This document shows, piece after piece, positions 18,396-29,235 of a stretch of DNA of 37,491 nt. Source of the DNA: an uncultured Chlorobiota bacterium. Its GTDB lineage: Bacteria; Bacteroidota; Ignavibacteria; UBA10030; UBA6906. The stretch spans positions 1 through 37,491 of the forward strand of contig CAADGV010000028.1 of NCBI GenBank assembly GCA_900696645.1, read 5' to 3'. A model generated the notes under the pieces. It was not told where the DNA came from. It made no database searches and worked only from the letters and a program-made list of their open reading frames with translations. Position 1 is the first letter of the stretch. Every line of letters starts with the position of its first letter. Position numbers and translations under genes: made by a program.

Positions 18396-19664
18396 TCATG
18401 ACAATAGGTACTCAAGTGTTTCGCGCCGGCGGATGAGTGTTATCCGGGATCCATCTACCAGAACCTCCGCAGGGCGGAGACGTGAATTGTAGTTCGATGA
18501 AAGAACGTACCCATACGCACCGGCACAGAGGACCGCAAGTACATCTCCTCGCGAGACAGAAGGAAGAAGTCTGTCCTGTGCAAAGAAATCGCCCGATTCG
18601 CAACACGGTCCCACAACATCCGCCTGTTCAACAATTGTGTTCGAGAGTTGCACTGGAACTATTTGATGATGGGCCTGATACAAGCTCGGACGAATCAGGT
18701 CATTCATCCCTCCATCAATAATAACAAAGTTCTTGCCCTCTTGTTCCTTCCGATACAATACCGTTGTGAGAAGCGCGCCTGCATCGCCGACAATTGACCG
18801 GCCGGGCTGTATAGCAACGGCGCAGCCTGTTTTTCTCAGAACGGGCAGCACGGTTCTGACAAACTCCGCGACCGGCACACTCTCCGACTCCGGCGTTTCG
18901 GCGGGAAGCCGCGGATGCGTTAGCACACCGTGATACCTGATGCCGAAACCGCCGCCGAAATCCACTTCGTGCACAGGGATGTTGTTGCTGCGCAATTCCC
19001 CGACCACACGTTCGAGCGCATGGGCCGCCTCGACGAAAGCCCTCTGACTCAGTATCTGCGAGCCGATATGACTGTGAATGCCCCGGATTTCAACCGATTG
19101 CAGATTCTGCGCCCACCGCAATACCTCCACGGCTTTGCGTGAAGAGATGCCGAACTTGTTGTGCTTCTGCCCTGTTGAAATATATGCGTGCGTCCCGGCA
19201 TCAATATCGAGATTCAGGCGAAGGAGTATTCGTGCCGTCTTTCCAAGCCGTGATGCAATAGTGTTGATGACCTCAAGCTCTTGTTTCGATTCAACGTTGA
19301 AAGCGTAGATGTCTTCCGCCAACGCGTATTCAATCTCATCATCCCGCTTGCCTACTCCGCTGAACGAAATACTATCCGGTGAGAAGCCGGCGTTCAGTGC
19401 AAGGAACAACTCACCTTTGGAGCCTACGTCGGCACCGAGATCCTGCTCTGCAATGAGTCTGAGGAGATGAACATTCGCGTTTGCCTTGACCGCATACGTT
19501 GTGCGATGGGGATGTCCCTCGAAGGCCGCTTCGATTGCGCTGCAGTTTTCGATGATGGCTTTTCTGCTGTACACATATAATGGCGAGCCAAATGTTGCGA
19601 TCAGGTCGGCAAGCCGCGTATCCTCGCAGTACAGCTCATGGTTTTGGTAGCGGAAGGATGTCAT
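18396..19664 (-). CDS. lysA: Diaminopimelate decarboxylase
   Basis: EC 4.1.1.20: PLP-dependent decarboxylation of meso-DAP to lysine. The 422-residue protein has the PLP lysine in YAVKANAN (Lys60), DVGSKGEL, GIHSHIGSQI, VDFGGGFGI, EPGR-equivalent QPGRSIV, CESGDFFA and GAYGYVLSSNYN. QPGR replaces the usual EPGR phosphate loop sequence. The ATG at 19664 overlaps the upstream stop by one base (TGATG), so translation is coupled; a GTG at 19673 is possible. It is followed by asd, so two lysine/DAP pathway genes sit together. Confidence 0.96.
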   Translation of the reverse strand: MTSFRYQNHELYCEDTRLADLIATFGSPLYVYSRKAIIENCSAIEAAFEGHPHRTTYAVKANANVHLLRLIAEQDLGADVGSKGELFLALNAGFSPDSISFSGVGKRDDEIEYALAEDIYAFNVESKQELEVINTIASRLGKTARILLRLNLDIDAGTHAYISTGQKHNKFGISSRKAVEVLRWAQNLQSVEIRGIHSHIGSQILSQRAFVEAAHALERVVGELRSNNIPVHEVDFGGGFGIRYHGVLTHPRLPAETPESESVPVAEFVRTVLPVLRKTGCAVAIQPGRSIVGDAGALLTTVLYRKEQEGKNFVIIDGGMNDLIRPSLYQAHHQIVPVQLSNTIVEQADVVGPCCESGDFFAQDRLLPSVSRGDVLAVLCAGAYGYVLSSNYNSRLRPAEVLVDGSRITLIRRRETLEYLLS

Positions 19665-21118
19665 CAACCCCACGCCGATTCGGAGAACTGCTGCCTCTTG
19701 CTCTCCGCTTTTGAGTCAAACGGATGGAAGTACTCAGCATAGTTGATGTCAAAGCCTTCGGCAGAAAAAGCCCCCGAATCCTGATCCTGAATATATGTGC
19801 CCTTGTACCCCTTGCGGCTGATAATCTCCAGCATCTCAACAAACGCATCGACATCGTTTTCATTCGAATAACATCCGAAGCTCGCCCGCACCATTCCCGG
19901 GAACGTGCTGAGGTCGGTCGTCACGACACCGCATCCGGCATCTTCCGCTTTGTCGGCATCGACGTGCAGCAATTTCTTCGCGTACGGTTGGGCACAGAAA
20001 TAGCCGTTTCTGACGCCGATTCCGCCTTCCGCCCCGAGGATGGCGCCCACCAAACCCGGGTGCATTTCCTCCATGTTGAACGTTATCACGCCCACTTTGT
20101 CGTCAAGTCGATCGACCGGCCCGTAGAACACCATCCCGGAAATCTTCTTCAGCTTGTTCATCGCGTACTCAAGCAGATGTTGCTCGTGTGCCGCCACAGA
20201 ATCCATTCCCAACTCATTCATGACACAAATCGCTTCGGCAAGCGCGAGGCCGCCGACAACATTCGGGCTGCCTGCTTCGTCGCGATGCGGCGCGGGGTTC
20301 CATTCCACATGATCCAACGTCACGATAGCGGCAACGCCACCGCCAACGGTATCGGGCTCTCCCGCCGCAAAGAAATTCTTCGGGCCGACAAGAACGCCCG
20401 TCCCGAAAGGCGCATACATCTTGTGGGCGGAGTATGCGAGAAAATCAATATGCCGGGGATCGTCATCGGGTAAGATGTTCACAGGGCGATGGGCAACAAG
20501 TTGGGCTGCATCAACAAACACGCGGGCCCCGGCGCCGTGTGCCAACTCTGCAATGTCGTGAATAGGAGAACAGATACCGGTAATGTTCGACGCTCCGTTG
20601 ACCGCTACCAACTTCACACGGCCCTTGAATTGCTGCAAGATGTCCTGCATTTCGTTCAAGTCAATGTGGCCTCCATTGACAACACCGACGTGAACCACAT
20701 GAGCCACCTTCCGCCATGGCAGATCATTGGAGTGATGTTCAATCCCCGTCGTCACCACCACGTCGTCCTTTGTGAAGTCGAACCGGTGCGCAAGCTTGTT
20801 GATACACTCCGTTGTATTCTTCAGGAAGACGACAATGTTCTTGTCGAGATCAGCGCCGACAAACCTGCCGCAGACATCGTGGGCACTGTCGTACAATTGG
20901 GTTGCAATCCGTGACTTGAAACCCGTACCGCGATGGACGCCGGAGTACCAGGGCATGAAATCTTCTATCCGCTTCAGCACGCGTTTGAATGCAGGCGTGC
21001 TTGCCGCGTTGTCGAGAAACACATACGGCCGCTTGCTGCCATCAAGCAGGGGGACGGCTGTATCGATTCCGACAATATCAGAACGGACGTTCTCGATCCG
21101 CATGGACTGGTTGTTCAT
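19664..21118 (-). CDS. Class V aminotransferase, cysteine desulfurase-like
   Basis: A 484-residue PLP enzyme of the class V (SufS/NifS) fold. It begins with FLDNAASTP (34-42) and has TGIEHHSND (124-132), the PLP lysine in SAHKMYAPFGTG (Lys233), and RNGYFCAQP (370-378) with Cys375 in the place of the SufS catalytic cysteine. It is about 75 residues longer than SufS, mainly from a C-terminal extension with GTYIQDQDSG and NYAEYFHPF. No SufU, SufE, IscU or other Fe-S gene is nearby; the neighbours are xerD and lysA. It may supply sulfur, or be a cysteine/selenocysteine lyase or an aminotransferase of another pathway. Confidence 0.85.
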   Translation of the reverse strand: MNNQSMRIENVRSDIVGIDTAVPLLDGSKRPYVFLDNAASTPAFKRVLKRIEDFMPWYSGVHRGTGFKSRIATQLYDSAHDVCGRFVGADLDKNIVVFLKNTTECINKLAHRFDFTKDDVVVTTGIEHHSNDLPWRKVAHVVHVGVVNGGHIDLNEMQDILQQFKGRVKLVAVNGASNITGICSPIHDIAELAHGAGARVFVDAAQLVAHRPVNILPDDDPRHIDFLAYSAHKMYAPFGTGVLVGPKNFFAAGEPDTVGGGVAAIVTLDHVEWNPAPHRDEAGSPNVVGGLALAEAICVMNELGMDSVAAHEQHLLEYAMNKLKKISGMVFYGPVDRLDDKVGVITFNMEEMHPGLVGAILGAEGGIGVRNGYFCAQPYAKKLLHVDADKAEDAGCGVVTTDLSTFPGMVRASFGCYSNENDVDAFVEMLEIISRKGYKGTYIQDQDSGAFSAEGFDINYAEYFHPFDSKAESKRQQFSESAWG

Positions 21119-21155: not shown

Positions 21156-22058
21156 TTACCCGCGAGGGTGAAACGTGCGGTGCACTTCCTTCAGGTACTC
21201 GCGGTCAATATGTGTGTAGATTTGCGTTGTCGAAATATCCGAGTGACCGAGCATTTCCTGCACAGCACGCAAATCCGCCCCGCCTTCAAGCAAATGTGTC
21301 GCAAACGAATGACGTAGCGTGTGCGGATGAACGTCCTTCTCTAATCCGGCCTGGCGCGCATATCTTTGCACGATATTCCATACCGCCATTCTGCTCAACG
21401 ACGTGCCGCGGACACTTAAGAACAAGGCATCTTCCGACTTATCCCTCCGTGCAAGCAGTATCCTGCATTCTCGTATGTACCGGTCGATCCATCGAAGTGC
21501 CGAGCCGCCAATCGGGACGATGCGCTCTTTCGATCCCTTCCCGAAAATCCGGACGAGCATCTCTTCGGCAAGTATACCCGATTGTTTCAGATCGATCACC
21601 TCCGAAACCCGCAGTCCGCTCGCGTACATTGTCTCAAGAACTGCTTTGTCGCGGAGCCACAATTGCTTCTTGTCTTTGGAACTTGGCGCGGGTTGCGCAA
21701 GCATCAGCTCTACTTCATTCTGGCTCAGCACATCAGGAAGCGAGCGCGGAAGTTTCGGCGCGTCAACTTCTTCCGCCGGATTTCTTCTGGTTACCCCGTC
21801 ACCGACGAGAAACTTGTGAAACCCCTTGATGGCCGAAAGCGCCCTCGTCACTGAACGCGGCGATAACCCATCACGTTTGAGAGAAGAAAGAAATTGCGTC
21901 GTGTGTGATTCACGAATAGCTCGTATGTTCCGCACGTTGTGCCGTTCAAGGAACGCAAGGTAGCGTTCAAGATCAAGTCTGTACGATGCAATCGTGTTGC
22001 GCGACGCATTCTTCTCCAACGCGAGATAATGCAGATAACTCTTGCAATGCTCGATCAT
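21156..22058 (-). CDS. xerD: Tyrosine recombinase XerD
   Basis: A 300-residue site-specific recombinase that resolves chromosome dimers at dif with XerC. All six catalytic residues are visible: Arg150 (SGLRVSE), Lys174 (FGKGSKER), His246 and Arg249 (HTLRH), His272 (LGHSDIS) and Tyr281 (IYTH). The N-terminal SAM-like domain (residues 5-85) starts YLALEKNASRNTIASY. Length and the ending LKEVHRTFHPRG are typical of XerD. No dif-like 28-mer was recognised nearby. The ATG overlaps the pgpH stop by four bases (ATGA). Confidence 0.94.
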   Translation of the reverse strand: MIEHCKSYLHYLALEKNASRNTIASYRLDLERYLAFLERHNVRNIRAIRESHTTQFLSSLKRDGLSPRSVTRALSAIKGFHKFLVGDGVTRRNPAEEVDAPKLPRSLPDVLSQNEVELMLAQPAPSSKDKKQLWLRDKAVLETMYASGLRVSEVIDLKQSGILAEEMLVRIFGKGSKERIVPIGGSALRWIDRYIRECRILLARRDKSEDALFLSVRGTSLSRMAVWNIVQRYARQAGLEKDVHPHTLRHSFATHLLEGGADLRAVQEMLGHSDISTTQIYTHIDREYLKEVHRTFHPRG

Positions 22059-24436
22059 TGCGTGTCGATGGATTTGATCCTGCGTGAAAGGCGTTCTTCC
22101 TTCGGGAACACCGGCTCCGTGCCCTCATCGTCGACGGGGATATTCGTTCGCTTTGGTTCCTCACTTTGTTCCCTGATCCTCTCACGCTTCTCCCCTGTAC
22201 TCTTCTTCTCGCTATCGGGGTACTTCACACGGCCGTGATATACCCCGATCAAAACACCGAGAAATGCCTTCTTGATCTTTGTGAGATCCTTCAACGTCAG
22301 GGGCGACTCATCAAGCTCGCCCTCTTCAAATCGCTTCTTGAAGAGATCATCAATCAATGACTCCAATTTCTGGGGAGACGGATCCTCGAGTGTTCGCGCC
22401 GCAGCTTCGATTGAATCTGCCAGCATCAGGATGCCGGTTTCCTTCGTTTGAGGTTTCGGGCCCGGATAGCGGTAATCCTGCTCGTTGATTTCATCAATCT
22501 TTGTCTCATCATCGGAGTTCTCCGCCAAATCAATTGCCTTGCGATAGAAATAATCTATGCGCGTTGTTCCGTGATGCTGCGGGATGAAGTCAATTACCTC
22601 TTCGGGAAGCGCATGCTCACGTGCAAGGGAGACGCCTTTCTTCACATGATTCTGAATGATAAGCGAACTCATTCGCGGCGATAACTTGTCATGACGATTC
22701 CGTGTACCCTTCTGGTTTTCGACAAAGTACGTCGGCTTTTCGATCTTCCCGACATCATGAAACAGTGCCCCGACGCGTGCAAGCACTTCATTCGCCCCCA
22801 CCGCCGAGGCCGCTGCCTCGGCGAGGCTCGCCATCGTCATGCTGTGATGGTACGTGCCGGGAGCTTTCTCGGACAGCATCTTGAGCAGGGGATGATTGAA
22901 GTGCGACAGTTCGATGAGTGTGAGATCGGTTGTGACGCGGGCAAATCGTTCGAAGAAGATCAGCAGGCCGAACGTTAAGACCGGAGAGATGATCGAGTTC
23001 GTCAACGCAAACATTAAAGCTTCCAGAATATTCATCCAGGGCTCGATGCGTTCCATCCCGAGTGCCAATATCGTCGCGCTGTACCCGAGAAAAATGTAGC
23101 CGAGCGAGCGGATAATCTGGTTCCTGTTGCGAACACCCCGTACTGTGTACACGGACAATGCTCCGGCAACAAGCGCTGCAAGCGCGACCGCATAGTCGTT
23201 GCCGCGTATACCGGCAACCAAGAATGCAATGATAACAGTTCCGTAAAACCCCACCCGCGAATCGAAAATAATCGTCAACAACATCGACGCAACTGGGACA
23301 AGAATCAGGTATTCGATCGGCGCGGCAACATCCACGACACGCGTGAGATAGGCGAAAAAACCCACAAGCAGCATCAAGAAGGCAATCAGTCCCAGGCGTC
23401 TGTTGTTGCAGAAAATCCGGCGGCGGAACAGACGGAGATAGATGCCGAATAGCAACACCACAACCCCGACATGAAGAAAAATTCCGAGATGCTGGAGAGG
23501 GCCGGGCGCAACCGCCCCCCGTTCCACCCTTGCCTTGCGTAACGATTCAAGTTTCTGCCTGATATCATACGTAATGCGCTCATTCTTGACGACAATACGA
23601 TCGCCCTCTTGCACAAAACCCGCAGTCCGGGGAACTGATTCGATTGCCGCCTTGATAGACTGCTGTGTCGCCTCTGCATTGAACCGGATATTCGGAACTA
23701 TATGCAGCACAATAATCTTGTGGGCAATATCCACTGTGTCGTTGTCACGGGAGTAATGCGCAATCAGATCATTGTCCAATTCTCCGACAACTTCACTTTC
23801 ATCGGTGAACACGTGAGCAGAAACAATCTCCTCTACTGTCCCTTTCCGCAAGGCAATTTCGGGCCGCGCAAGGGAACCCTTCTCCACATCAAGAATGCCG
23901 CGCTGCAAATGCTTTTCGGCAATACGCAGGATAACATCCCGCATTTCAAAAAGGTGTGCGGACGAGAATCTCGACAGCAGATTCCATTCACGTTCGTAAA
24001 GATTCAGTTGTAGCCGGGATGAGAGTTCGGCAAACACTGCAGAATCGGCCGGGGAACCCGAATTCCGGAATTTTGCCCGGGCAGCCAGTACCGCCTGCAA
24101 GCGCTCGAAAAAATCCCTCAGTCTGCTCAGTTGTGCGTCGGCAATTGATTGATCACGCTCAAAAACCGGATAGACGTTTGCCTTCGCCTGAGCTACTTCC
24201 GCTGCGTACTCCTCGGCATCGCGGGAAATAGGAAACGAAAACGGCGCAAACAAATCCTGCCGTGTCCACACTTGCCCGATCTTGTGATCCAGTTCAAAAG
24301 ACGAGCCACGAGGGAACATCATGCCCAGCAGGAGTATCAACCCGCCGGTTATAGCGCCCTTCTTCGCCAAATCCTTCGTAGGAATGAGGCGTCGAAGTTG
24401 TTGCGCGATTGTTTCTTGCAGCTTATTGTCTGGCAT
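22055..24436 (-). CDS. pgpH: 7TM-HD phosphohydrolase, PgpH-type c-di-AMP phosphodiesterase
   Basis: A 793-residue membrane protein with the PgpH layout: one N-terminal TM helix (about 28-43), an extracytoplasmic 7TMR-HDED domain (about 45-300), a 7TM region (about 315-500), and a cytoplasmic HD domain (about 515-720). The metal site is intact: HH (530-531), HD in LFHDVGKIEKP (560-565), HH in PQHHGT (621-622), and LMLADSIEAAART with a metal-binding Asp. Such enzymes degrade cyclic di-AMP to pApA. It is the first gene of the nine-gene run. A basic tail rich in Lys/Arg/Glu closes it. The ATG at 24436 has no clear SD. Confidence 0.93.
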   Translation of the reverse strand: MPDNKLQETIAQQLRRLIPTKDLAKKGAITGGLILLLGMMFPRGSSFELDHKIGQVWTRQDLFAPFSFPISRDAEEYAAEVAQAKANVYPVFERDQSIADAQLSRLRDFFERLQAVLAARAKFRNSGSPADSAVFAELSSRLQLNLYEREWNLLSRFSSAHLFEMRDVILRIAEKHLQRGILDVEKGSLARPEIALRKGTVEEIVSAHVFTDESEVVGELDNDLIAHYSRDNDTVDIAHKIIVLHIVPNIRFNAEATQQSIKAAIESVPRTAGFVQEGDRIVVKNERITYDIRQKLESLRKARVERGAVAPGPLQHLGIFLHVGVVVLLFGIYLRLFRRRIFCNNRRLGLIAFLMLLVGFFAYLTRVVDVAAPIEYLILVPVASMLLTIIFDSRVGFYGTVIIAFLVAGIRGNDYAVALAALVAGALSVYTVRGVRNRNQIIRSLGYIFLGYSATILALGMERIEPWMNILEALMFALTNSIISPVLTFGLLIFFERFARVTTDLTLIELSHFNHPLLKMLSEKAPGTYHHSMTMASLAEAAASAVGANEVLARVGALFHDVGKIEKPTYFVENQKGTRNRHDKLSPRMSSLIIQNHVKKGVSLAREHALPEEVIDFIPQHHGTTRIDYFYRKAIDLAENSDDETKIDEINEQDYRYPGPKPQTKETGILMLADSIEAAARTLEDPSPQKLESLIDDLFKKRFEEGELDESPLTLKDLTKIKKAFLGVLIGVYHGRVKYPDSEKKSTGEKRERIREQSEEPKRTNIPVDDEGTEPVFPKEERLSRRIKSIDTQ

Positions 24437-24543: not shown

Positions 24544-24584
24544 AGATAAAAGAAAGAACCCGAAGCCGGACTGACTTCGGGTTC
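24544..24584 (-). terminator. Intrinsic terminator of the heme protein unit
   Basis: Read on the minus strand, GAACCCGAAG pairs perfectly with CTTCGGGTTC (10-bp stem, 9-nt loop, 24556-24584) and is followed by TTTCTTTTATC. It lies 24 nt after the stop of the cytochrome at 24608 and 108 nt before the pgpH start codon, so it separates the two transcripts. Confidence 0.88.
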
Positions 24585-24607
24585 CAATTTGTGCTATGAT
24601 ACAAGGT

Positions 24608-25012
24608 TTAGTTGTTCTTCGCCCCCTGATCGATCCACGTGGCAACGGCCTTCAGTTCATCTTCAGTAAGCCAAACTGCTTTCCCTTCCTGTATCCGTCG
24701 TTTCGAATTCAGAGGCATACGATCACCGAAGGGGGGCTTCTCCGCAAGCTTCTGTATGAGCAGACTTTCGCTTGACTTGCCGACCTTAAAGGGCACACCG
24801 TGCTTGCCGCCGGCGGCGATCTGATCGTACGAATCCATATTCAGTTCGCTTGGGTTGAAGTTGTCTTCAGCATGACAGGGAAGACACTTTGCTTTGATGA
24901 TCGGGAATACATCATTCTTGAAAGAAACTTCTTGTTTCTTGCCGTTCTGGGCAAAGAGACTTGCCGACACGAATACCGTCACTGCAAGAACTGATGCGGC
25001 ACGGATTTTCAT
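24608..25012 (-). CDS. Small c-type cytochrome, exported
   Basis: A 134-residue protein with a signal peptide (residues 1-21, ending SLFAQ) and one heme motif CLPCH (43-47), inside DVFPIIKAKCLPCHAE, the form seen in planctomycete-type cytochrome c domains. Met99 in GDRMPLN is the probable second heme ligand. The ending DELKAVATWIDQGAKNN is nearly the same as that of the upstream lipoprotein. The ATG at 25012 has a GGGAGG SD with 7-nt spacing; the longer frame to 25072 is not used. Likely periplasmic electron carrier. Confidence 0.88.
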   Translation of the reverse strand: MKIRAASVLAVTVFVSASLFAQNGKKQEVSFKNDVFPIIKAKCLPCHAEDNFNPSELNMDSYDQIAAGGKHGVPFKVGKSSESLLIQKLAEKPPFGDRMPLNSKRRIQEGKAVWLTEDELKAVATWIDQGAKNN

Positions 25013-25083
25013 TCTTTTCCTCCCTGATTGTAAGATTCTGCTATCACGATAATAAACAAACACTACGAACAAATGGTTGCAGG

Positions 25084-25803
25084 TCAGTTATTCAGCGCGC
25101 CCTGTGAAATCCAGTCACGAATCAATTGAATCGAGCCCGAAGGTAACGCTGAACCTCCCAACGGCATCAGATTCCCGCAATTCCCCTCAATGCGCTTCAC
25201 CAATCCGCTTGCTCCGGGATTATTAGGAACAACGCGCATATCTCCGGCACAAGGTCCCGTCGACGCCGGAACATTGACTAAACTGGCGTATGAACTACCG
25301 GACGCCAGAGAAAACGGCGCCCCTCCTCCGGGATGACACCCTGCATTCACACAACTTGCCGTGAATATCGGTTGGATTTGTGTTGAGAAGGATACGCCCG
25401 TTGCGGCGGGAGACACACGAATTTCGATTTCGATTTCGTTTTCCTCATGCATCGGCGAATCAAGCGACGAGTCGTGCGTATCAGAATCCTTGATCTTCAC
25501 GCTCGTTGTTCCGGAAACACTGCTGCTGACGGCCTGTATCAGAAGCGTGCCCGTGCCGTTGGCATTGTTCGTAAGTGTAGCAGAAGCAAGGGATGCGCTC
25601 GGATCCCTGCTGATTCTGTACGGCGGGTTGCCGCCGCTGATTGTCACCGAGGCACTGCCACCCGGGTTAAGCGTAACAAGAAATGTTGTTGCAGTTAGCA
25701 CATTGCTGCGCGCAACAACGTGCCCCATATCCTTGCAACTGTACATACCTGCCGCAAGCGTCAGGAGAAATACTGCTGCAATGTGAATTCTGTTCACTGG
25801 CAT
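25084..25803 (-). CDS. Lipoprotein with C-terminal cytochrome-like domain (CX4CH heme motif)
   Basis: A 239-residue protein with a lipoprotein-like signal (GMYSC, Cys23). Residues about 35-130 form a beta-rich, Ig-like domain with repeated short strands. The C-terminal part (about 137-239) starts STQIQPIFTASCVNAGCH, in which Cys151 and Cys156 with His157 make a CX4CH motif in place of CXXCH. Met213 in NLMPLGG could be the distal ligand; Cys185 and Cys209 may form a disulfide. It ends WISQGALNN, like the neighbouring cytochrome. The gap to the barrel gene is 15 nt, so they are one transcript. The heme may be bound through the unusual motif; this needs proof. Confidence 0.78.
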   Translation of the reverse strand: MPVNRIHIAAVFLLTLAAGMYSCKDMGHVVARSNVLTATTFLVTLNPGGSASVTISGGNPPYRISRDPSASLASATLTNNANGTGTLLIQAVSSSVSGTTSVKIKDSDTHDSSLDSPMHEENEIEIEIRVSPAATGVSFSTQIQPIFTASCVNAGCHPGGGAPFSLASGSSYASLVNVPASTGPCAGDMRVVPNNPGASGLVKRIEGNCGNLMPLGGSALPSGSIQLIRDWISQGALNN

Positions 25804-25818
25804 ACTAATGCTTCCCTC

Positions 25819-26928
25819 TTATAGGTAGAAATGAATAAGGAGATTGAACTCGTTGTTCTTCAGATCAACAGGATCTTCATGTGAGATTCGGTAAACGGGC
25901 CTGACTTCAACGCCGCTGATCGGGAAGAACTCAAAACCAAAACTGTAGCGGGAAACGGCGCCGGCTTTCACATCGATATTCGGATCGTAAAATTCATAAA
26001 TGAATTTGAGGTCAACGCCCGGCGTTACAACATATCCTGCTTCAACGTATGAGACGAGTCCCGTTGTTGTTGTGCCTGCCACCTTGTTCCGGATCCAATC
26101 AACTTCACCGGAAATCGTGAGATCACCATAACTCAACGATCCCATTCCTCCGAAAAGAGTGGTCTGGCTTCCACCGCCTCCTTCTCTGGAGAACACATTT
26201 CCCCCAAGCCCGAGAAACAGATCTTCCGAGAGTTTGAAGACGCCATCCGCTCTGCCCAGGAAGGCCTTATTGCTTGAGCCTCCACCTCCGAAGCCATCGG
26301 CCGCGTTGTACACGCCCGCCGTCACTGAAACGGGTCCCGGACTGAACCCAACTTCCCCGCCCGTCAGTTCTGAACGACCCCGTTCGGGACTGAATCCGGT
26401 TTGATCTCGAATGAATGTCCGGTGATCGTCAACCTTCGTTCCGTAATTGGGAACAAACTTCCCTATTTTGATATGGCCGTTGGCGGGAAGGATGTTCAAA
26501 AGCCCGAAGATCTCAAATCCGGAATAGATGCCTTTGTCGATGTAGATGCTCACCTTTCGAGCAAGCCGGAAATTCATGTACACATCACCCTGCATCTGGA
26601 AGAACGCATTATTGGTTGTCGAACCTTGTCCAGTTGAATCAGGAATCTGCTGTGCGTAGAAAAGCGTCCTGACATCCGCCCCGACGGAAACGAATTCGGA
26701 GAGTTTGGTCGAGAAGTCATCGAGACCCAGTTCCTCGCTCCAGGTCGGCACAGGCAGAGTCTCGCGCCCATACTGCACCCCGAACGCCTGCCGCATGCCC
26801 CCGCCCGAAGGATTCACGTGACAAGACTGGCACTTGGCCCCCGTTCGACTGGCAAACCGTGGAAGCGAAAATGAGGTTTCAGCCAGCAAAAAACAAAGAA
26901 GCAAAAAGCTGACAGGAATACGTTTCAT
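25819..26928 (-). CDS. Outer-membrane beta-barrel with N-terminal CXXCH heme motif
   Basis: A 369-residue exported protein. After the signal peptide (residues 1-21) comes FASRTGAKCQSCHVNPSGGGMR, with CQSCH at 33-37, next to the mature N-terminus. The remainder alternates polar and aromatic residues in strands, with KIGKFVPNYG, DHRTFIRDQTGF, VSVTAGVYN and a final LLIHFYL strand ending in an aromatic then Leu, as in porins. A barrel with a heme at its periplasmic mouth would be suited to move electrons or a substrate across the outer membrane. The gene follows a strong promoter at 27009-27037. Confidence 0.75.
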   Translation of the reverse strand: MKRIPVSFLLLCFLLAETSFSLPRFASRTGAKCQSCHVNPSGGGMRQAFGVQYGRETLPVPTWSEELGLDDFSTKLSEFVSVGADVRTLFYAQQIPDSTGQGSTTNNAFFQMQGDVYMNFRLARKVSIYIDKGIYSGFEIFGLLNILPANGHIKIGKFVPNYGTKVDDHRTFIRDQTGFSPERGRSELTGGEVGFSPGPVSVTAGVYNAADGFGGGGSSNKAFLGRADGVFKLSEDLFLGLGGNVFSREGGGGSQTTLFGGMGSLSYGDLTISGEVDWIRNKVAGTTTTGLVSYVEAGYVVTPGVDLKFIYEFYDPNIDVKAGAVSRYSFGFEFFPISGVEVRPVYRISHEDPVDLKNNEFNLLIHFYL

Positions 26929-27008
26929 GAGGGACTCCCATGTTGAGGTTCATAGAACAGGTTGAGATGGTACTCTTTGAGAATTATCGAGCGTTATGGA
27001 GTGGTGTC

Positions 27009-27037
27009 AATATAGCAAGACGATCTGAGGGAGTCAA
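27009..27037 (-). promoter_or_regulatory. Sigma-70 promoter of the barrel/cytochrome unit
   Basis: On the minus strand, TTGACT (27032-27037), a 17-nt spacer, and TATATT (27009-27014). The start of transcription would be near 27002, leaving a leader of about 74 nt before the ATG at 26928. The -10 box is identical to that of aceA. The remaining 26929-27126 DNA shows no other feature except the hairpin at 27087-27116. Confidence 0.75.
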
Positions 27038-27126: not shown

Positions 27127-28194
27127 TCACTTCAACACCAACATCCGTCCGGTTTCACTGAATGAGCCGCCGTTCATTCTATAGAAATACGTTCCGCTCG
27201 GCACACTCTCGGCATTCCAACTCGTGCGGTAGGTACCGGGTTGCTTCAGTTCGTTCACCAACGTCGCCACTTCCTGTCCCAATAGGTTGTATACCTTCAG
27301 CGAGACGAACTCCGCTGTTGCAACCTGATACTCAATAGTGGTTGAAGGATTGAACGGATTCGGATAGTTCTGTTTCAAAGCGAATCCCGTCGGGATGTCA
27401 TTACCCACCCGTACGCTTGTCGGCAACGGCCCGCTCCAGGTAGTTGAGTTTGGACTAATGTTGATTGTGCCGCTATTGGGTTGCAGCGTGTCGGTCGCGA
27501 CGACGGTGACCGATGCGCCATTCAATGCAATGAATTGGTAGCTCACTCTTCTCCCCGACGGCGTCCGGCTATCTTCGCGAATGCGCAAGGCCTGATGCGT
27601 GCCGAAACTTCCCGGAAGTGTGATAGTACCGTGTGCATCGACGGTTTGAGTTACGTTGTACGGGGTTATCTGATTGATAAGAGGTATGCCCAACAGCGAG
27701 ACCACAAGACTCTCAACGTATGCATATGTCCATGTTGTTCCATAAGCAAGTGGAAGTGAGTAGTAGACAAGTTCCGGCGTGTTAGTCAATCTGAGCACTG
27801 CCGTACCGAACGGCGTCGGTCCATCGCCGCCTGCACCAGGAATGTACAAGCTCGTTCCCAGACGTAGGTATTGGTGCACAATTCCCGTTATTCCTTCAAG
27901 GGTTTGACGTGTTCGCAACGCGTGGGTTGCGCCGGGAAACCAGCTTGCATACGGAGTCCCCGCCACGGCAACACTCGTCAGAGTGTCAAACCGGTGTGTG
28001 TTCAGCGAGCCGAAATTCCAGACATTTGCAGCAGAACCGGGGGTTCCGATATTCGCCGAAGCGGTCAGAGTGTCGGCGCGATTGATGAGGGCATTCCCAA
28101 CAGTAAGTCGGGCAGCAATATCTGTTGCGGTGATCGTAATCTGTGCCGAAGCGGCACAAGTCGCGAAGAGAAGCAAGCCAAGTACAGCCTTCAT
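27127..28194 (-). CDS. Secreted protein with type IX secretion C-terminal sorting domain
   Basis: A 355-residue protein with a signal peptide (1-18, ending ASAQ), a beta-rich central region of unknown function, and a C-terminal sorting domain from about residue 268. That domain has TGFALKQNYPNPFNPST (NYPNPFNP at 276-283), VYNLLGQEVATLVN and the ending SGTYFYRMNGG-GRMLVLK, the pattern for outer-surface or secreted cargo of type IX secretion in this phylum group. The central part contains no enzyme motif that I can name. The ATG has a strong SD (AAGGAGGT). A hairpin follows the stop. Confidence 0.88.
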   Translation of the reverse strand: MKAVLGLLLFATCAASAQITITATDIAARLTVGNALINRADTLTASANIGTPGSAANVWNFGSLNTHRFDTLTSVAVAGTPYASWFPGATHALRTRQTLEGITGIVHQYLRLGTSLYIPGAGGDGPTPFGTAVLRLTNTPELVYYSLPLAYGTTWTYAYVESLVVSLLGIPLINQITPYNVTQTVDAHGTITLPGSFGTHQALRIREDSRTPSGRRVSYQFIALNGASVTVVATDTLQPNSGTINISPNSTTWSGPLPTSVRVGNDIPTGFALKQNYPNPFNPSTTIEYQVATAEFVSLKVYNLLGQEVATLVNELKQPGTYRTSWNAESVPSGTYFYRMNGGSFSETGRMLVLK

Positions 28195-28456: not shown

Positions 28457-29044
28457 CTAATTCTGTCTGTCAGAAGCAAAATGCGAGGAACCATAGCCTT
28501 GGCAGCGCGCGTAGGTTTCCAACTGTTGCGCGAGGAGTTTGCGTCCCCTATGAATGCGCGAACGAACAGTCCCGATAGGAGTCTGAGAGAACTCGGCAAT
28601 CTCCTCGTACGTGCAGCCTTCAAGGTCGCTCAGAATCAGTGCTGTCTGGTAGTCAGGCGGAAGTGCATCGAGTGCGTTGGAAACTTCATCTCCTATCATC
28701 GCCTCATGCGCTTCGGATGACCGGTAGTCGACCAACAGTACCCTGCCGGTTCGTGGAGCATTGTCGTCGTGCTGTGTTCCCCCATCGTCCACAAAATCCA
28801 TCGGAATGGTCTCATACTGCTTGCGGCGGTAATCGTTGATGTAGGAATTCTTGCAGATCTGAAAAAGCCATGCACGACAGTTCGTCCCTTCCTGATATGT
28901 ATGAAACGATTTGCATGCCTTGAGCATTGTTTCCTGTACCAGATCGTTTGTGTAGTGCTCGTCGCGACACAACTTGAAGGCAAAGTTTCGTACGGCATCA
29001 ATGTGTGTCAGAGCTTCCTGGGCGAACAGCGGTTCGTTGTACAT
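28457..29044 (-). CDS. ECF-type RNA polymerase sigma factor
   Basis: A 195-residue sigma-70 family protein with region 2 (about 10-77; DLVQETMLKACKSFHTYQ and FQICKNSYINDYRRKQ) and region 4 (about 125-175; LPPDYQTALILSDLEGCTYEEIAEF and TVRSRIHRGRKLL), linked by an acidic segment of about 50 residues. It would direct polymerase to an alternative set of promoters. No anti-sigma gene is adjacent: the next gene downstream codes for the type IX-secreted protein. The start is uncertain: ATG at 29044 gives the usual N-terminus; an in-frame ATG at 29086 has AGAGGA only one nt away. It may be read from the glycosyltransferase transcript upstream. Confidence 0.88.
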   Translation of the reverse strand: MYNEPLFAQEALTHIDAVRNFAFKLCRDEHYTNDLVQETMLKACKSFHTYQEGTNCRAWLFQICKNSYINDYRRKQYETIPMDFVDDGGTQHDDNAPRTGRVLLVDYRSSEAHEAMIGDEVSNALDALPPDYQTALILSDLEGCTYEEIAEFSQTPIGTVRSRIHRGRKLLAQQLETYARCQGYGSSHFASDRQN

Positions 29045-29235
29045 GGCGCACCGATTATGAAAAAGAACTGATGGAACATTTGTCATTCCTCTGACGCAAG
29101 GCGCGTGCCAGTATGAGAGAATCGAAAGTGAAGAAAATCTGCCCGGTTTTCAGCTTATTGACGGTGAATGTAGCATTCCCGCCACAGCCGGAAGCATGTG
29201 TGAGCAAACCTCTGTGGAATATCCGCCACAACACG

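Follow-up and report, generated by a model that had tools for sequence, protein, structure and literature searches.

The stretch of DNA analysed here (the window, 37,491 nucleotides) is contig CAADGV010000028.1 of GenBank assembly GCA_900696645.1, from an uncultured, Ignavibacteria-like bacterium (class Ignavibacteria, order UBA10030, family UBA6906). Three consecutive open reading frames (ORFs) on the minus strand at 26928-24608, each with a heme motif, encode a predicted fused monoheme cytochrome-porin (the barrel), a lipoprotein-like monoheme cytochrome and a small exported monoheme cytochrome. The three heme-motif genes had been pointed out in an earlier note on this DNA and were borne out, the motifs being CQSCH, CVNAGCH and CLPCH. 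The barrel gene (25819..26928) encodes a precursor of 369 amino acids with a signal peptide, an N-terminal heme segment and a predicted 16-strand OprP/OprO-like barrel; its heme-attachment motif (26818..26832) lies at C12-H16 of the mature protein, inside LPRFASRTGAKCQSCHVNPSGGG. The lipoprotein-like cytochrome gene (25084..25803, 239 amino acids) follows after a gap of 15 nt and carries its CVNAGCH (CX4CH) motif at 25333..25353, with a predicted Ig-like N-terminal domain and a FoxE-like cytochrome domain. After a further 71 nt the small cytochrome gene (24608..25012, 134 amino acids) encodes a PSCyt1 domain with CLPCH (24872..24886) and a conserved Met before W-I-x-x-G-A.

Searched as a single protein query at E 1e-5, the barrel had matches in 253 of the 391 class genomes. 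A 28-row barrel profile matched 266 of the 391, and 228 of the 337 with at least 90% completeness and at most 5% contamination. Profile matches were mostly single copy, and most among the matches listed spanned the whole profile including the heme segment. Two to four matches per genome were observed in several genomes of families f15, f21 and f25, where paralogs may exist. Among 395 genomes drawn from the phylum, the barrel had matches in 67, of which all but two belong to the class; the two out-of-class matches were weak, one covering only the barrel part (G492) and one the heme part at a contig end (G601). The latter (locus L140, contig C280) matches the heme segment at 51% and may reflect transfer or contamination; no heme ORF of at least 80 amino acids was called at this locus. 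A plasmid search returned no relative of the barrel, and its named relatives are from metagenome-assembled genomes of Ignavibacteria, Bacteroidetes and Kapabacteria. Searches of Pfam and NCBIfam assigned no family to the barrel, and phmmer against the PDB gave chance-level matches only.

Barrels were extracted from 118 loci; at five of these the ORF caller found no ORF, leaving 113 proteins. A C..CH motif was present in the N-terminal segment of 111/113, and the two lacking it (L047, L083) are ORFs that start past the motif. The barrel heme motif is therefore not a chance occurrence, and the conservation on which the earlier note had made its conduit idea depend was found. Among weak barrel relatives the motif was kept in 12 of the 13 loci examined, the thirteenth being a contig-end fragment. 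The family motif reads [LY]P[RK]F-x4-G-x2-C-x2-CH-x-NPxGG-x-R. For residue counts 122 barrels were collected and identical rows and barrels of <300 amino acids were removed, together with L047 and L083 and the uncalled loci L037, L058, L077 and L114; L010 was added by hand, giving 105 non-identical rows. CXXCH is present in 105/105 of these by construction, since rows without C..CH had been removed first, and 111/113 is the fair count. Residues P2, G21, R25, G29, R66, M91, Y96, G135, P139 and H148 (mature numbering) are invariant or nearly so across the 105 rows, with M91 present in 104 and H148 in 102. The next best Met or His column beyond CXXCH is H345 near the C terminus (90/105).

An AlphaFold2 model of the barrel, generated with 28 sequences, has 16 strands with a mean predicted local distance difference test score (pLDDT) of 69 and a predicted template modelling score of 0.71. 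Foldseek placed OprP first (2o4v, E 4.9e-11) and VIA-align placed OprO first (Z 22.9, rmsd 3.3, 286 aligned); VIA-align rows within Z 1 count as tied, and these include chitoporin and Omp32. The OprO/OprP phosphate porins thus share the predicted fold of the barrel but only 12-14% identity over the structural alignments, and to our knowledge they have no heme segment. In the model Met91 (26593..26595, minus strand) sits in strand 2 and His148 (26422..26424, minus strand) in a short helix that follows strand 5, the place of the inward-folded loop 3 in classical porins. This loop-3 position of His148 leads to the proposal that the barrel itself ligates the heme, and either Met91 or His148 may be the distal ligand.

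The nearest known system in architecture is Cyc2/Cyt572, the Fe(II) oxidase of Acidithiobacillus, Mariprofundus, Gallionellaceae and Leptospirillum. In the available portion of PMC8406198, a protein counts as Cyc2 if a 16-strand porin, modelled on OprO/OprP, is fused to one CXXCH at its N terminus and if AxPxFAR[Q/K][T/Y] lies upstream of this CXXCH and PxL downstream of it; Cyc2 is proposed there to act as a periplasmic plug oxidising dissolved Fe2+ that enters the pore. The barrel has the same single CXXCH at the N terminus of an exported protein, after the signal peptide, and a P-x-F before it; a 16-strand barrel with OprO/OprP as nearest folds in a moderate-confidence model; and a soluble c-type cytochrome encoded downstream. 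Its precursor length exceeds the Cyc2 minimum of at least 365 residues, and some relatives are of ∼358 residues. A comparison set was obtained by a motif-peptide search of plasmids, which matched 9 records, from which six Cyc2-like cytochrome-porins were taken; these were chosen by motif and are not biochemically tested Cyc2, and the complete PxFAR[QK][TY] occurs in only 3/6. A c-type cytochrome gene follows 5/6 of these loci.

When the barrel family was compared with the six Cyc2-like proteins by hhalign, only the heme motif aligned (probability 92.8, E 3.9e-7; probability 91.0 with the 105-row profile). Controls with the unrelated CLPCH cytochrome profile gave probabilities of 1.5 and 3.6, so that the match of the heme segments reflects more than a shared CXXCH. 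Homology of the barrel parts was also considered and is not claimed, as the forced global alignment was untrustworthy. PxFAR[QK][TY] at fixed spacing was found in 0/105 barrels, with per-position matches of P 100, F 93, A 78, R 1, Q/K 11 and T/Y 67 of 105, and PxL downstream of CXXCH in 0/105 barrels versus 6/6 of the comparison set. The barrel family has HxNPxGG(M)R in place of these Cyc2-defining motifs, together with the near-invariant Met91 and His148; [ND]PxG occurs in 93/105 barrels versus 0/6 Cyc2-like proteins. The mature barrel is also shorter, at ∼350 amino acids versus 422-496 in the six Cyc2-like proteins. With two defining features missing throughout, the family is Cyc2-like in build, and probably in action, but on its sequence is a separate variant from Cyc2.

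Both small proteins are His/Met cytochromes and are related to each other. They have a CXXCH-type motif, a distal Met and a W-I-x-x-G-A end, and the C-terminal domain of the lipoprotein-like protein and the CLPCH cytochrome are related with a profile-profile probability of 99.1. The CLPCH cytochrome matches Pfam PSCyt1 (24.7 bits, cut-off 22), and CLPCH is invariant in 11/11 aligned homologs. FoxE (5MAB), a photoferrotroph cytochrome that has two hemes and oxidises Fe(II), was the top PDB match of both small-cytochrome profiles. The matches (E 4.4e-8 and 4.9e-5) fall on the heme units of FoxE, and hydrazine synthase alpha was also matched by both profiles. FoxE shares the CXXCH ... M-P ... W-I-x-x-G-A unit but carries two heme units in one protein, which are here divided between two genes, one product apparently lipid-anchored; the match is a statement of kinship and not of iron oxidation. 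A putative lipobox, MYSC-K, was read by eye in the lipoprotein-like protein, and its Cys is invariant in 7/7 aligned homologs, following S or G. An AlphaFold2 model of this protein shows an Ig-like N-terminal domain, with the cytochrome domain less well modelled. The earlier note had named the unit in part by its CX4CH lipoprotein; homologs have CX4CH, CX3CH or CXXCH with an invariant distal Met, and CX4CH is thus a local variant and no defining trait.

Gene order was counted in the order to which the window belongs, where the barrel loci of 51 genomes were analysed and 46 have at least 600 nt downstream and could be tested. A heme-motif gene lies within 2 kb downstream of the barrel in 42/46, 40 being detected by a regular expression for the cytochrome signature and two CLPCH neighbours being added by hand (G234, G258); the four genomes lacking one are G076, G170, G204 and G310. 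Within the window's family a CLPCH cytochrome follows the barrel in 16/16 testable genomes. The extra lipoprotein-like cytochrome gene stands in between in 5/16 (G000, which is the host genome, and G096, G146, G227 and G383). The co-occurrence of three genes, on which the earlier note had made its conduit idea depend, therefore holds within the family for the barrel and the CLPCH cytochrome, and for the full set only in a minority. Neither the three-gene unit nor the 2 kb downstream of other barrels, inside or outside the order, contains a multiheme cytochrome gene. Six loci of family f14 (L081-L084, L111, L112) encode, upstream of the barrel, a secreted protein of 220-242 amino acids that has a similar heme motif, C[AS][NM]CHxxxxGGG, and ends in an NYPNPFNP-type tail for the type IX secretion system (T9SS); these proteins are possible extracellular monoheme partners of the barrel.

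The promoter and terminator that the earlier note had placed around the unit are both present. A sigma-70-like promoter, TTGACT-17-TATATT with TG before the second hexamer, lies at 27009..27037 (minus strand), and an intrinsic terminator hairpin of 13 pairs (-21.8 kcal/mol, z -5.2) spans 24555..24585 (minus strand), with a T-rich tail after it. A promoter scan of 3 kb was near chance, with 4 sites found versus 2.3 expected. Of 13 loci of the family that were tested, three (the window, G096 and G146) have the identical TTGACT-17-TATATT 5' of the barrel, and a one-base variant, TTGATT-17-TATATT, in G293 raises this to 4/13 with the window counted; despite the near-chance scan the promoter is probably real, as the same site recurs upstream of the barrel in other loci of the family. 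From the gene spacing we infer a single transcript for the three genes.

Multiheme cytochromes are encoded with the barrel only in two Kapabacteria relatives, where it lies in a conduit-like cluster (L028 4716-12662, L029 4865-11886). This cluster holds an MtrC-domain hexaheme lipoprotein-like protein, a barrel with CQSCHVN, a Rieske protein, small monohemes, a 13-heme cytochrome and a cytochrome b561-NapC fusion, and looks like a complete extracellular electron transfer operon. The host genome has multiheme clusters elsewhere: contig C9 at 46-62 kb (L134, L135) carries 13-, 19-, 11- and 12-heme genes and a 5-heme lipoprotein gene, with a heme-free 428-amino-acid ORF, judged by eye to look like a barrel, beside the 12-heme and 5-heme lipoprotein genes; contig C30 at 60-64 kb (L136) carries 20- and 31-heme genes. 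Given these clusters, the three-gene unit would be a second, simpler route. OmbB- and MtrB-type conduits in Ignavibacteria are described in the portion of PMC7399161 available. The unit resembles MtrCAB and OmbB-OmcB porin-cytochrome conduits in pairing a barrel with cytochromes across the outer membrane, but differs in having one heme within the barrel, monoheme partners only and no multiheme protein.

The unit is probably best explained by fused monoheme cytochrome-porins that resemble Cyc2 yet form a family apart and have periplasmic cytochromes of their own. The N-terminal CXXCH segment would receive one heme c and plug the periplasmic half of the 16-strand OprP-like pore, and the barrel itself would probably provide the distal iron ligand, for which the candidates are His148, on the inward-facing loop behind strand 5, and Met91, on the barrel wall. 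An electron would be exchanged at the barrel heme with a small, dissolved redox partner that enters the pore from outside; the barrel heme in turn would hand the electron to, or take it from, the FoxE/PSCyt1-like His/Met cytochrome of the adjoining gene. The CX4CH cytochrome, putatively lipid-anchored, would be an optional addition, as a further relay or a docking site. It is likely that the barrel unit transfers electrons across the outer membrane. Dissolved Fe(II) as the substrate is a guess by analogy with Cyc2, and a flavin or other shuttle is an equally open choice. The minimal outer-membrane relay proposed in the earlier note thus still gives the best reading; conduits without decaheme proteins, which had seemed a departure from known systems, are not unprecedented, Cyc2 being a single-heme cytochrome-porin, and genes of the Cyc2 type often have a c-type cytochrome gene next downstream.

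Several observations weigh against this explanation. About a third of the class genomes have no barrel match, near-complete ones included. The heme segment (residues 8-49) has pLDDT <50 in the barrel model, so the model does not define the plug position or the ligands. Sequence likeness to Cyc2 is limited to the heme motif, the barrel parts giving no confident alignment. At loci outside the order a heme gene lies within 2 kb downstream of the barrel in 0/34, and the barrel therefore often works without a neighbouring cytochrome.

This last observation would suit a redox- or gas-gated specific porin, in which the heme would act as a sensor of redox state, O2 or NO that opens or closes the pore, and no electrons would be handed on. 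The barrel standing alone in 34/34 loci outside the order, its wide spread whatever the neighbours, and highly conserved inward residues that suit a gate as well as a ligand set are consistent with such a porin; the electron-transfer cytochrome neighbours in 42/46 genomes of the order and the Kapabacteria relative in an extracellular-electron-transfer-like cluster argue against it, and we regard it as unlikely. A similarly low probability is given to the barrel being a true if divergent Cyc2 that oxidises Fe(II) and belongs to the known family of three clusters; FeGenie may already score it as Cyc2 of cluster 3. The common architecture, fold templates and gene order fit a true Cyc2, and the available text of a FeGenie-based mine-fluid study (PMC8478452) reports iron-oxidation genes in Ignavibacteriales and, at sites D2-D6, Cyc2 that is mostly of cluster 3; those reports may concern the barrel family of the present unit. 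PxFAR[QK][TY] and PxL are nevertheless absent from all 105 barrels, and NPxGG, M91 and H148, conserved in the family, occur in none of the six Cyc2-like proteins. Chlorobi Cyc2 was moreover acquired from Proteobacteria, according to the part of PMC9342728 available, while the barrel family runs through the class.

The Kapabacteria context and the host multiheme clusters on C9 and C30 would also be expected if the barrel belonged to an ordinary multiheme porin-cytochrome conduit with partners encoded elsewhere, for example on contig C9 of the host. That contig has its own heme-free 428-amino-acid ORF (its barrel nature judged by eye), the unit has its own promoter and terminator, and barrels of the MtrB type, with 26 strands, are far wider than a 16-strand pore, as far as the available source text describes them; a multiheme conduit barrel is on these grounds improbable. 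It is very improbable that the barrel is a nutrient porin whose CXXCH carries no heme and instead forms a disulfide or binds a metal. The segment does score below the cut-off for every Pfam cytochrome family, but it is exported, has an invariant His, lies beside undoubted c-type cytochromes and aligns with the Cyc2-like heme segment.

Genes around the unit were also examined. Downstream are a 7TM-HD phosphodiesterase (22055-24436), a XerC-like integrase (21156-22058) and a class-V aminotransferase (19664-21118), and this order after the unit looks conserved in L005, L007 and L008. Upstream, a T9SS-sorted protein of unknown function and without a heme motif (27127-28194) lies between the barrel and an extracytoplasmic function (ECF)-type sigma factor gene (28457-29086). 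An ECF-type sigma factor is encoded 5' of the barrel in several same-family genomes (L005 5227-5805; L008 5426-5908), sometimes directly, and is a possible regulator of the unit. CKSCH in the L005 sigma factor was considered as a heme motif and rejected as chance; the sigma factor of the window has CKSFH.

A further-reaching version of the fused cytochrome-porin explanation is put forward tentatively, at somewhat less than even probability: the barrels may form a second, independent lineage of single-heme conduits, class-wide, mostly single-copy and old in Ignavibacteria, with a barrel sequence not recognisably related to Cyc2. The barrel would supply the distal ligand (His148 or Met91), making heme and pore one redox-active channel, and the lineage would have taken on FoxE-like cytochromes as partners in one order, and multiheme proteins in Kapabacteria. 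The barrel family itself is real and conserved and has no Pfam or NCBIfam annotation; no description of it was found in the open-access literature searched, and this variant of the Cyc2 kind is apparently undescribed there. If the proposed function is correct, the simplest outer-membrane electron gate would extend beyond the iron oxidisers with Cyc2, and marker searches based on Cyc2 may mistake another protein for an iron oxidase. As a small protein that can be expressed, the barrel would lend itself to studying how a pore makes use of a single heme, and Ignavibacteria, which are reported from groundwater and electrodes, would gain a route besides their multiheme conduits.

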